From: Bacillota bacterium
GTDB lineage: Bacteria > Bacillota > Clostridia > Lachnospirales > Bianqueaceae
NCBI GenBank assembly: GCA_017442735.1
Contig: JAFRZE010000003.1
Coordinates: 1 to 64,000, forward strand
Direction: 5' to 3'
DNA length: 64,000 bases
Below are positions 55,752 to 62,418 of this stretch, piece by piece. The notes beneath the pieces are model-generated. The model saw nothing but the letters and a program-made list of their open reading frames with translations. It was not told the DNA's origin and ran no database searches. Position 1 is the first letter of the stretch. Every line of letters starts with the position of its first letter. A program made the position numbers and the translations under genes.

Positions 55752-55800
55752 TAAAGGAACATAGCCGGGTGAACGTCTGGCCCGGCTGATAGGAGTGATC

Positions 55801-56966
<1,166 letters not shown>

Positions 56967-56989: not shown

Positions 56990-57496
56990 ATGCCACTCAA
57001 TATTGATTTTCAACAGATCCTGCTGCATCTGTTCAATTTCGTGATCCTCGGAGGGGGCCTGTACTTTCTTCTGTATAAGCCCGTAAGAGTGTTCATGGAT
57101 GAGAGAGAAAAGAGGATCTCCGACAGCCTGGATAAAGCAAAAGCGCAGATGGAAGAAGCGGAAGCCATGAAGGCCGATTATCAGAAGCAAATGGCGGACG
57201 CGCACGCACTCATCAAGGCGCATGAGCAGGAAGCGGAGGCCAGGATCGAGATGGAACGCCGTACGGTCGAGAAGGACGCGAAGAAACAGGCGGCCGAATA
57301 CCTTAAATCAGCGCGGGCGGAAGCGGAAAAAGAGCGCGAGCTGATGATGGAAGAAGCGCAAAAGGAGATCCGTGTGCTCGCTTCCGAGGCGGCTGAAAAA
57401 CTGGCGAGAAGTTCCATCAGCAATGTGTATGACGAATTTCTGGATTCTGTATCCGGTCCGGCATCGATGCCGCAGAATGAGCACAGGCAGGGATAG
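56990..57496 (+). CDS. atpF: ATP synthase F0 subunit b
   Basis: 168 residues. One N-terminal membrane helix (LLHLFNFVILGGGLYFLLY), then a long Ala/Glu/Lys-rich coiled coil, and a C-terminal SEAAEKLARSSI segment, as in normal b. It ends with a 15-residue tail (SGPASMPQNEHRQG) and shows no fused delta domain, unlike the b-delta fusion of mycobacteria. RBS AGGAGG. The next gene begins 11 bases later; no atpH lies between them. Confidence 0.92.
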   Translation: MPLNIDFQQILLHLFNFVILGGGLYFLLYKPVRVFMDEREKRISDSLDKAKAQMEEAEAMKADYQKQMADAHALIKAHEQEAEARIEMERRTVEKDAKKQAAEYLKSARAEAEKERELMMEEAQKEIRVLASEAAEKLARSSISNVYDEFLDSVSGPASMPQNEHRQG

Positions 57497-57507
57497 GAGA
57501 CAGGGTC

Positions 57508-59250
57508 ATGAGTGAATTTAGTGACCGCAGAGTCGTACAGGCTTTGATCCGGTCCGCTCAGCCGCCTTCACGGGAGCAGAGGGAACGGTTCGTTAAGTTT
57601 GTCGCGCACAATTACAGCGGTGAAATTCGTCTGTCCTGGGACAAGGAAGAGTCGATCACCGACGGATTTATCCTTCAGGTCGGCTCGGATCTGTATGACT
57701 GGAGTCTGGAAGGCCGTATCCAGCAGATGAAGGAAGCCATCGAGAATGTCGCGGATGAGCCTGGTGTTCCTATTACCACACTGATCCGGCAGAAGATCGA
57801 GAGTTTCCAGCTGGAGGCGATGCCCCGCGAGGTCGGCCGCGTGTTGACGGTCGGAGACGGGATCGCCACAGTAGACGGACTTTCCGGCGCTGCTTACGGT
57901 GAGATCCTGGTCTTTGAGAACGGGATCCGCGGTATGATCCAGGACCTGAGGAAAGACTACATCGGCTGTGTGCTTTTTGGTGACGACGGGCAGATCCTGG
58001 CCGGAAGCCGTGTGTATCGTACGCACAGGCAGGCCGGTGTTCCGGTCGGCAGCAGTTATCTGGGACGAGTCGTGGACGCGCTCGGCGAACCGATCGATGA
58101 TCAGGGTCCGATCCGCGCCGACGACTATATGCCGCTGGAGATCGCGGCTCCGGGGATCATTGACCGTCAGGCTGTCAATGAACCCATGGAGACAGGACTT
58201 CTCTGCATCGACGCGATGTTCCCGATCGGACGCGGCCAGCGAGAGCTGATCATCGGCGACCGTCAGACGGGCAAGACGACGATTGCGCTTGATACGATCC
58301 TCAATCAGAAGGGCAACGGCGTCATCTGTATCTATGTGGCCATCGGCCAGAAAAACAGTTCTGTGGCACAGACAGTCAAGATCCTGTCTGAACACGGGAT
58401 GATGGATCAGACGATCGTGGTCGTTTCCTCGGCCAGTGATCCGGTGCCGCTTCAGTATATCGCGCCATATTCCGGGACCGCGATGGGAGAATACTTCATG
58501 AATCAGGGCAAGGACGTCCTGATCGTGTATGATGATCTTTCCAAGCATGCCACCAGTTACCGGACGATCTCCCTTCTTCTGGGACGATCACCCGGACGTG
58601 AAGCCTATCCCGGCGATATTTTCTATCTGCATTCAAGACTGCTGGAACGTTCGGCGCATCTGTCCGATGAGATGGGAGGCGGATCCATGACCGCGCTTCC
58701 GATCGTCGAGACCCAGGCCGGCGACGTTTCCGCCTATATTCCCACAAACATCATTTCCATCACGGACGGACAGATCTTCCTGGAAAGCGATCTGTTCTTC
58801 TCCGGTCAGCGGCCCGCTGTGAACGTAGGTCTTTCGGTGTCGCGTGTCGGTGGCAGCGCTCAGACCAAGGCGATGAAATCCGCTACCGGAACGCTCCGGC
58901 TGGATCTTTCCCAGTACCGTGAGATGCAGGTCTTTACCCAGTTTGATTCGGACCTGGACGATCTGACGAAAGCGCAGCTTGCGTACGGCCAGTCGCTGAT
59001 GCAGCTTCTCAGGCAGTCACAGCACAGTCCTCTTTCTATGGAGGAACAGGTCGTGGTACTGGTTTGCGCACTGGGGCATAAACTGCAGAATTATCCGCTG
59101 GAGGAGGTCCGTGATGTCCGCGCGCGCCTGCTGCAGGGAATGAAGGATCGTTATCCGCTGATCATGAATGAGATCTCGGAAGGATATAAGCTTACACAGG
59201 AACTGAGGGAAGCGATCCTTTTAGCCTGTGATGAGATTCTGAAAGAGTGA
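57508..59250 (+). CDS. atpA: ATP synthase alpha subunit with N-terminal delta-C-like fusion
   Basis: 580 residues; normal alpha is about 500. Residues about 13-77 match the C-terminal half of the delta/OSCP subunit: [20 protein letters not shown], then TDGFILQVG and SLEGRIQQM (the GGFxIxIGD and GRLxxL pattern of delta). Residues about 88 onward are alpha: [29 protein letters not shown], Walker A GDRQTGKT (about 250) and [12 protein letters not shown]. The operon order is a-c-b-alpha-gamma-beta-epsilon with no separate delta gene, so a fused delta-C with loss of the delta N-terminal domain is inferred. With three alpha chains, three delta-C domains would be present per F1 unless cut off. Confidence 0.92.
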
Positions 59251-59254
59251 TCCT

Positions 59255-60133
59255 ATGGCCAGTACAAAAGAGATCCAGGACAGGATCACGAGTGTCCGGG
59301 ACACGCAGCAGATCACCAATGCCATGTACCTGATCGCGTCCATGAAGATGCGCAAGGCAAAGCGTGAACTGGATGGGACCAGACCATATTTTGAAGCTGT
59401 CAGTAAAGAGATCAAAAGGATCTTCCGGACAGCGGAAAATGTCCGCAGTCATTATTTTTATTCTTCCGAGAGCGAGATCGAGGCAGAAGGGACCGACGGG
59501 CTTCTGGTCATCACGGCCGATAAGGGCCTGGCCGGAGCCTACAACCAGAATGTGCTCAAAAGAGCGGAAGAGATCCTGAAGCAGAATCCGGACACTAAAC
59601 TGTTTGTGGTCGGCGAATTCGGTCGTCAGTATTTTCAAAGGCGAAAGATCGAGGTAGAACAGAATTTTCTCTATACGGCCCAGAATCCGAACATGGCCCG
59701 TGCCAGAGAGATCTGCCTGTCCATGCTGACACCCTACGAAGAAGGCAAGATCAAGCGGATCTTTATTCTCTATACGGATCTGAAAAACGGTATGGTGACA
59801 GAGCCGGTCTACACCAGGCTCCTGCCGTTCAAGCCATCTTCCTTCCAGACGACGACGGAAGAAAAGAAGGTGAAGACCCCCTTTATCTTCATGCCGTCGA
59901 TCGAGGCGGTACTGGACCGTCTGGTGCCGAGCTATGTGTCCGGCAACATTTACAGCGCGCTGGTCGACAGCTTCTGTTCGGAACAGCAGGCCCGGATGAG
60001 CGCGATGAAAGCAGCCGGAGATAATGCCTCCGAGATGCTAGACGAACTATCCATGGAGTACAATCATATCCGTCAGACAGGTATTACACAGGAGATCACC
60101 GAGCTTTCTGCGGGCAGCAGAAACCGGTCCTGA
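59255..60133 (+). CDS. atpG: ATP synthase F1 gamma subunit
   Basis: 292 residues. The N-terminus STKEIQDRITSVRDTQQITNAMYLIASMKMRKA and the C-terminal AMKAAGDNASEML with the ITQEITEL ending are the long helices of the central stalk. The middle TADKGLAGAYN is the conserved core. It turns within the alpha3-beta3 ring. Spacing to alpha is 4 bases and to beta 21, so it is one operon. Confidence 0.93.
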   Translation: MASTKEIQDRITSVRDTQQITNAMYLIASMKMRKAKRELDGTRPYFEAVSKEIKRIFRTAENVRSHYFYSSESEIEAEGTDGLLVITADKGLAGAYNQNVLKRAEEILKQNPDTKLFVVGEFGRQYFQRRKIEVEQNFLYTAQNPNMARAREICLSMLTPYEEGKIKRIFILYTDLKNGMVTEPVYTRLLPFKPSSFQTTTEEKKVKTPFIFMPSIEAVLDRLVPSYVSGNIYSALVDSFCSEQQARMSAMKAAGDNASEMLDELSMEYNHIRQTGITQEITELSAGSRNRS

Positions 60134-60142
60134 TCATCATAA

Positions 60143-62031
<1,889 letters not shown>

Positions 62032-62107: not shown

Positions 62108-62136
62108 AGGAACTTTGCCATCACTTGATTGTCGAA

Positions 62137-62418
62137 TAGCAAGGTGAACTATTATTTTGAACTGACCTTGCTACCGTCGGGCTGTTGAATAGCAAGGTGA
62201 GCCGCCTATTTTGACAAACCTTGCTATTAGAATAGCAAGGTAGATTATTTTTATGAATCAACCTTGCTACCGCTAGAGTGCCAAATAGCAAGGTGAATTG
62301 CTTTTTTCTCCAAACCTTGCTACTGAAATAGCAAGGTGAACTATTATTTTGAACTGACCTTGCTACCGTCGGGCTGTTGAATAGCAAGGTGAGCCGCCTA
62401 TTTTGCCAAATCTTGCTA
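62137..62418. repeat. 48-bp-phased palindromic array B
   Basis: Twelve half-sites of the same 9-bp family as in the array at 35225: 62137, 62165, 62190, 62218, 62233, 62261, 62286, 62314, 62329, 62357, 62382 and 62410, with one more degenerate half before the first. Spacers between dyads are all 19 bases; loops alternate 16, 6, 16, 6, 16 from 62165. Segments of about 90 bp at 62137 and 62329 are nearly identical and lie exactly 192 bp apart, two super-periods. It again sits between convergent genes, so it fills the gap between atpC and the pseudouridine synthase. Confidence 0.92.

Follow-up and report, generated by a model that had tools for sequence, protein, structure and literature searches.

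A natural fusion of the delta C-terminal domain to the alpha subunit in a clostridial F1Fo ATP synthase operon

The alpha subunit carries the C-terminal half of delta

How does a bacterial ATP synthase connect its catalytic head to its peripheral stalk if the operon has no gene for a separate delta subunit? This question is raised by an F1Fo ATP synthase operon in a 64,000-nucleotide stretch of a Clostridia genome (assembly GCA_017442735.1, contig JAFRZE010000003.1, positions 1 to 64,000; "the window" hereafter means this whole stretch), in which the alpha subunit gene, atpA, begins with additional coding sequence. The initial annotation, made from the letters alone, placed a delta/OSCP C-terminal pattern in the first ~77 residues of AtpA. 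A Pfam search agrees, with PF00213 (OSCP) matching residues 7–77 (40.2 bits against a cut-off of 22.3), and the two segments that had been named as signatures, DGFILQVG and SLEGRIQQM, are both found in the N-terminal part. This profile search had been set beforehand as one of two tests that could refute the fusion, and the match is significant. The usual alpha domains follow the OSCP part, and the match to the NCBIfam atpA equivalog, TIGR00962, begins at residue 89. The gene and its parts are as follows.

57495..57499, + strand: Shine-Dalgarno-like AGGAG of the fusion gene (direct reading of the sequence)
57508..59250, + strand: deltaC-alpha fusion gene, AtpA, 580 amino acids (aa) in one open frame, a layout common to relatives
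57526..57738, + strand: delta/OSCP C-terminal domain, residues 7–77 (PF00213 positions 100–171 of 172, E 4.9e-10)
57727..57729, + strand: internal ATG at residue 74, the sole start codon in the scanned stretch, with a 4-base ribosome-site match
57739..57771, + strand: linker from the delta C-domain to the alpha N-terminal helix, residues 78–88, between the OSCP and TIGR00962 matches
57772..59247, + strand: ordinary F1 alpha subunit from its N-terminal helix (TIGR00962, 714 bits; cut-off 484)

The AGGAG lies 8 bases 5' of the AtpA start codon and overlaps the stop of the b gene. The operon of a near-identical genome (G006, locus L036) has the same frame, with an alpha 98.6% identical to that of the window. 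Because this genome and more distant relatives share the AtpA frame, an assembly error is ruled out; a chance match or a frameshift artefact was likewise rejected, based on the profile E value and the recurrence in relatives. At the level of sequence, an in-frame delta C-terminal domain on the alpha N-terminus is established.

The remainder of delta is undetectable in the operon and the genome

Canonical bacterial F1Fo operons are ordered a-c-b-delta-alpha-gamma-beta-epsilon. The window differs in having no separate full-length delta, and its order is a-c-b-(deltaC-alpha)-gamma-beta-epsilon, with the other subunits encoded as follows.

55795..56619, + strand: subunit a, 274 aa, divergent (PF00119, E 9.5e-20; under the TIGR01131 cut-off)
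56616..56966, + strand: subunit c, 116 aa, extended at its N-terminus by a signal-peptide-like stretch and altered in its glycine motif (PF00137)
56990..57496, + strand: subunit b, 168 aa, without an attached delta N-domain (PF00430 only, E 1.3e-17; length and C-terminal end compared)
59255..60133, + strand: gamma subunit (PF00231)
60155..61624, + strand: beta subunit (TIGR01039, 782 bits)
61621..62031, + strand: epsilon subunit (PF02823)

The end of c and the start of the fusion gene are 542 bases apart with b alone between them, a distance with room for b only. Across loci, the c-alpha distance is 347–763 bases (median 502) in 90 fused loci, duplicates included, versus 1035–1396 in 28 unfused loci. 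In the window's own genome (2.82 Mb, 83 contigs, 88.8% complete), AtpA is the only PF00213 match; the same search used as a positive control gave a match in 9 of 14 well-known genomes. A second profile, built from 13 delta N-terminal domains, had no match in this genome at E ≤ 0.1. Given 32 genomes, it detected all 10 that are known to have the N-domain, eight of which had contributed rows to it, the exceptions being G045 and G592. At E ≤ 0.01 it matched none of 22 fusion-only genomes, which were all but four (G431, G378, G336, and G389) of the 26 deltaC-only genomes known at that stage and include two, G002 and G003, that are 75 and 86% complete. A match in G176 at E 0.017, inside a 1049-aa frame, looks like chance. 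Neither atpH nor a delta N-domain was found in the near-identical G006 (94% complete) or in the single-contig fusion genomes G329, G081, G127, and G201 (99–100%).

In three genomes (G201, G275, and G442), the PF00213 match extends upstream of the fusion frame across one or two stops. In G201 and G442 this upstream part coincides with the b gene when positions are compared, and the N-domain profile found nothing in G201 (G275 and G442 were outside that profile test). For the window, an N-domain concealed in b, in intergenic space, or elsewhere was rejected based on PF00213, the N-domain profile, and gene spacing. The earlier claims that the separate delta has been lost, and that its N-domain is absent from b and the intergenic spaces, thus hold by these same three measures, and the genome search for atpH or a stand-alone N-domain, also set beforehand, found neither. 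That the delta N-domain is undetectable in the operon and the genome is established within the reach of these sequence searches.

An engineered counterpart and other known systems

The presence of one a-subunit per rotary ATP synthase was previously taken as universal (PMC12229609). According to that paper (Ueno et al. 2025), the delta N-domain on the F1 axis restricts the stalk number to one, and a Bacillus PS3 enzyme with the N-domain deleted and delta-C fused to alpha carries up to three stalks and a-subunits, with an H+/ATP of 5.8 and about half the threshold force. The authors also report a natural fusion for Acidaminococcus fermentans and two UniProt entries (G4Q3K6 and A0A1I2C5T3), by their account without the delta N-domain, and call a multi-stalk structure of natural fusions highly likely, as a prediction. 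The initial annotation had taken delta-alpha for an unknown type of fusion, and this has to be corrected: the design had been both engineered and noted in A. fermentans in 2025, and the window enzyme is a natural case of it. The available sections of that paper contain no survey of natural fusions, in which they differ from the present work. Three papers citing it concern other subjects, and none of the titles and abstracts listed pointed to another paper on natural delta-alpha fusions, with most subscription journals and all preprints outside the scope of the search. What our analysis adds is that the fusion is widespread, that its origin was repeated, that there are likely intermediates, and that the window clade has a rebuilt c-subunit; the last three were not met in the literature searched.

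The engineered PS3 deltaDeltaN-alpha FoF1 (PMC12229609, structure 9jc1) resembles the window enzyme in having no delta N-domain, delta-C on the alpha N-terminus, and an alpha chain of 580 aa. An AlphaFold2 model of AtpA, built from 32 aligned sequences (mean predicted local distance difference test score, pLDDT, of 72.8), aligns to it structurally over nearly its full length. The delta part of the model has ten-residue mean pLDDT values of 78–89 across residues 11–80, and most of 361–451 is poor. Foldseek places the engineered chains 9jc1_I, J, and K at ranks 2, 5, and 9 among its best 50 matches, with template modeling (TM) scores of 0.74–0.80 by query length, and only these align over 570–575 columns (475–516 for the other chains among the best 50). 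By sequence, 9jc1_I matches AtpA residues 46–537 in a single stretch. The two enzymes also differ: the epsilon C-domain was removed in the engineered one, whereas the window enzyme is natural and has a divergent Fo and an extended c.

The mycobacterial b-delta protein (7jg5 chain d) is alike in that delta is joined to another subunit, and its C-terminal end matches the profile used here (E 4.5e-6), but its partner is b, not alpha, and the 168-aa b of the window contains ATP-synt_B only. The alpha and beta equivalogs are both matched in the window (TIGR00962, 714 bits; TIGR01039, 782 bits). To our knowledge, the N-ATPase (alternate F1F0) also lacks a delta gene. Identity with this enzyme was rejected, as the scores reach 595.9 of 750.5 bits for TIGR03324 and 580.9 of 752 bits for TIGR03305, and the gene order of the window differs in being the ordinary one minus delta. 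By its sequence features, the enzyme is classified as an F1Fo ATP synthase of the deltaDeltaN-alpha type.

Distribution of delta-alpha fusions

The proposed check of related genomes showed that the fusion recurs. It was found in 8/19 genomes of the family, 10/58 genomes among relatives, and at least 39/391 genomes of the class, counted wherever delta-C is matched in a frame of at least 509 aa (35 of the 39 were confirmed as open reading frames, ORFs; G233, G400, G435, and G389 were outside that reading). Most of delta is retained in the fusion in five of these 39 (G291, G249, G326, G190, and G364). Across the phylum, 5/299 genomes had a fusion at E ≤ 1e-6, one of which (G711) lies outside the class; within the class of G711, 10/17 genomes match delta-C in a frame longer than 600 aa, and all five loci fetched (L107, L135–L138) are long alphas. 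A peptide pattern of the fused protein yielded 47 named loci, all 47 fused, which were ascertained by the pattern and so give no frequency (six were later set aside as copies of fetched loci). Hosts found in this way include Flintibacter muris, Faecalibacterium, Pseudoflavonifractor, Anaeromassilibacillus, and many rumen and gut assemblies, and some have strain labels (Flintibacter muris DSM 110149, Faecalibacterium gallinarum JCM 17207, and Anaeromassilibacillus senegalensis An867). Of 37 fusion genomes examined with PF00213, 14 encode a separate full-length delta as well (second F-ATPase) and 23 do not, 20 of the latter being at least 90% complete. In G068, the fused copy is visible only with a narrower profile.

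Repeated origin and likely intermediates

When alpha was placed on a tree with the extension removed (80 rows: 58 deltaC-alpha, three full fusions, and 19 separate), at least four changes between the fused and separate states were required, and the starred branches force at least three for the separate group. A single origin was rejected on this tree, with all fused rows held together giving an approximately unbiased test p-AU of 6.1e-5. Three points temper this value: the group was defined with a first tree already in view, L107 sits on a long branch, and operons may have recombined internally. Row selection dropped 19 loci and kept 21 unfused ones for the first tree, and dropped 30 and kept 19 for the 80-row tree; the dropped loci were near-copies and others removed to thin the set, and further unfused rows were not chosen. 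The repeated origin suggests that the fusion brings a benefit.

The window falls in a fused clade of 44 rows (support 100/98). Its closest neighbors beyond the clade are unfused loci (L041, L042, and L127), deltaC-alpha loci (L039, L116, and L125), and long delta-alpha loci (L094, L113, and L114), while the fused groups f28/f31/f73, f66, L093, and L107 occupy the other half of the tree. As read from the alignment, the delta N-domain, present in six of these nine neighbors, is shortened there relative to the ordinary one, by ~7 residues (L041 and L042) or ~12. A long delta with such a shortened N-domain is fused to alpha in proteins of 669–690 aa (L094/L095/L115 in G291, G249, and G326; L113 in G190; L114 in G364). 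These long fusions are probable intermediates, in which the single axial place on F1 would be contested by three N-domains. We read the alignments and tree as suggesting an order in which the N-domain shrinks, delta fuses to alpha, and the N-domain is then lost, an order that the tree leaves unproven.

Remodeling of c and Fo in the window clade

The a- and b-subunits of the window fall under the NCBIfam cut-offs (TIGR01131 and TIGR01144) and c is just above its own (TIGR01260); by the scores of a and b, the window Fo is therefore divergent. The a-subunit arginine is present (SMSFRLFG); the regular expression used for it missed several a-subunits outside the clade, and no count is claimed. A YDWS-like motif occurs in 62/62 clade genes and was not used as evidence, since 47 loci were found through that motif.

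For the comparison of c, the window clade was made by elimination (61 rows, with c found for 60) and set against 34 unfused rows (c found for 24); because of their shared descent, the window-clade rows count as one event. A signal-peptide-like N-terminal extension, with at least 60 residues before the RQP loop, is present in 60/60 window-clade c-subunits versus 1/24 canonical ones. The ring-packing glycines average 2.07 of 4 in the clade and 3.83 in canonical c. In Bacillus pseudofirmus, alanine in the glycine motif reportedly gives a more relaxed and wider c-ring (PMC2914638), and by this analogy c in the window clade has possibly been rebuilt into a wider ring. If so, there would be more room for several a-subunits. 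A c-ring change as a constant accompaniment of fusion was rejected, as the early f6 loci, the full fusions, and f28/f31/f73 keep the glycines.

The Na+ ligand set of the Ilyobacter/Fusobacterium-type c-ring includes Gln or Glu at position 32 (PMC3692424). At the corresponding place, mapped by distance from the RQP loop, Met is found in 60/60 window-clade c-subunits and Gln or Glu in 24/24 canonical ones. Na+ coupling of the window c accordingly gains no support from this comparison.

Glycine loss is also seen in f66 (mean 2.8) and in L093 and L107 (2 each). The f66 c-subunits (L100–L103 and L106) resemble those of the window clade, with VFIES/VFMES and Met at the ligand place, against VFIET. 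The f66 alphas are far from the window clade on the tree despite the similar c, so that convergence or an exchange of Fo genes may be involved.

How many stalks could the fused enzyme carry?

With the b-binding C-terminal half of delta on each alpha N-terminus, F1 would present three identical docks for b. Loss of the delta N-domain, ordinarily single and placed on the three-fold axis, would remove the symmetry-breaking element, and up to three b2-a units could attach, as in the engineered PS3 enzyme. Ions per turn would then equal the number of c multiplied by the number of a, enabling ATP synthesis at low ion-motive force or ATP-driven pumping in a very low gear. Such an enzyme would fit an anaerobe with Rnf-type pumps, in which a multi-a enzyme could harvest the small Rnf-made gradient and a V/A enzyme could work in another gear. 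The genome of the window has two RnfC genes above the cut-off and a gene for V/A-type ATPase subunit D.

G000:C45:7390-8697, G000:C34:69631-70899, G000:C81:113709-114293: RnfC (two) and V/A-type ATPase subunit D genes

By analogy with the engineered enzyme, multi-stalk assembly is in our view the best explanation for the window enzyme, one toward which we lean rather than one we hold firmly. An altered peripheral stalk, one of the two outcomes envisaged in the initial annotation, is the reading we favor. A fuller version, in which the natural fusion acts with a redesigned and possibly wider c-ring in the window clade and makes ATP with an ion-motive force only about one half to one third as large as usual, is put forward tentatively.

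Several observations weigh against multi-stalk assembly. Few of the engineered particles had three stalks, with an average of about two by gel, which the authors attribute to preparation (PMC12229609). Biochemistry or structure of a natural fusion was not met in the literature searched, and stalk number cannot be read from sequence. In the operon, a and b are single genes (no search was made for a raised dose). The full delta-alpha fusions show that fusion is compatible with the presence of the N-domain, all four ring-packing glycines are kept in the early f6 deltaC-alpha loci, the full fusions, and f28/f31/f73, and, by nonsynonymous difference (pN), 12 of 13 gene pairs show faster change in the delta domain than in the alpha core.

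The main rival is a single-stalk enzyme in which three delta C-domains are present and only one, or one at a time, binds b2, the other two being spectators or F1 caps; the fusion would then reflect genome economy at an ordinary ion/ATP ratio. It agrees with a and b each being encoded once, in the ordinary operon order; Fo space or b supply could limit the stalks, and more than one stalk is harder to picture in the full fusions with a shortened N-domain. Selection on the delta domain argues the other way. Its ratio of nonsynonymous to synonymous rates (dN/dS) is 0.05–0.47 in 12 of the 13 gene pairs tried, the remaining pair having no finite dS (for the delta domain of the window/L033 pair, dN is 0.27 against a dS of 1.43, and the alpha core of this pair has a dN of 0.165). 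The delta C-domain is thus under purifying selection in these pairs, 11 of which are from the window clade and two from f28/f73, with several dS values near saturation. We regard the use of one dock in three as a serious contender, though one we would not bet on.

A mixed alpha pool, in which an internal start or proteolysis yields two plain alphas and one fused chain and so restores an enzyme with one delta and three alphas, is improbable. In its favor, the window has the in-frame ATG at residue 74, one weak candidate whose product would be a normal-looking alpha, and 37/83 fused genes contain, near the junction, some start codon preceded by a ribosome-site match of at least 4 bases. This share (0.45), however, is near the 0.39 obtained for 1156 control windows within the alpha core, 18/83 genes have no start codon there (0.22 versus 0.11 in controls; eight duplicate genes were dropped from the scan), and the delta N-domain would remain missing even from a mixed pool. 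An internal start as a general device was rejected on these near-chance frequencies, a rejection that applies to the fused genes as a set and not to the window alone. Since junction starts are at chance level and 18/83 genes lack any, three delta domains per F1 are to be expected by default. Least credible by far is a decaying or non-functional ATP synthase in a cell relying on its V/A-type ATPase, for which the subunit D gene could be cited: the alpha and beta scores are far over the equivalog cut-offs, dN is below dS in both the alpha core and the delta domain, and 20 fusion genomes with a completeness of at least 90% lack a separate OSCP protein.

If natural fusions do assemble two or three a-subunits, the gear ratio of the enzyme would be set by the number of a as well as by the c-ring, and anaerobes would have used this gearing repeatedly. 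The multi-stalk prediction in print, made for A. fermentans and the two UniProt entries, is directly testable in the strain-labelled fusion hosts.

Unusual delta genes and other observations

An orphan 104-aa gene encoding a delta N-domain only was found in four other genomes (L132:5773-6087 in G592, L133:3396-3710 in G665, L134:5778-6092 in G735, and L139:2664-2978 in G688), spanning OSCP positions 6–96 in L132 and L133. No ATP synthase subunits were detected around these genes by blastp in the 9–12.5 kb fetched; the neighbors in L132/L133 include HAD hydrolase, AAA_17, GGDEF, and aminotransferase genes. PF00213 matches confined to the N-domain occur in 6/7 genomes sampled from the genus with the orphan gene. 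A separate, unfused delta of 261 aa in G305 (L108:5271-6056) has two C-terminal domains in tandem and might provide two b docks on one delta.

An Rfam search of the window gave no match. On its downstream side, the epsilon gene adjoins a repetitive stretch (62121-62387) with SPTVARSVQNNSSPCY-like units in a minus-strand ORF.
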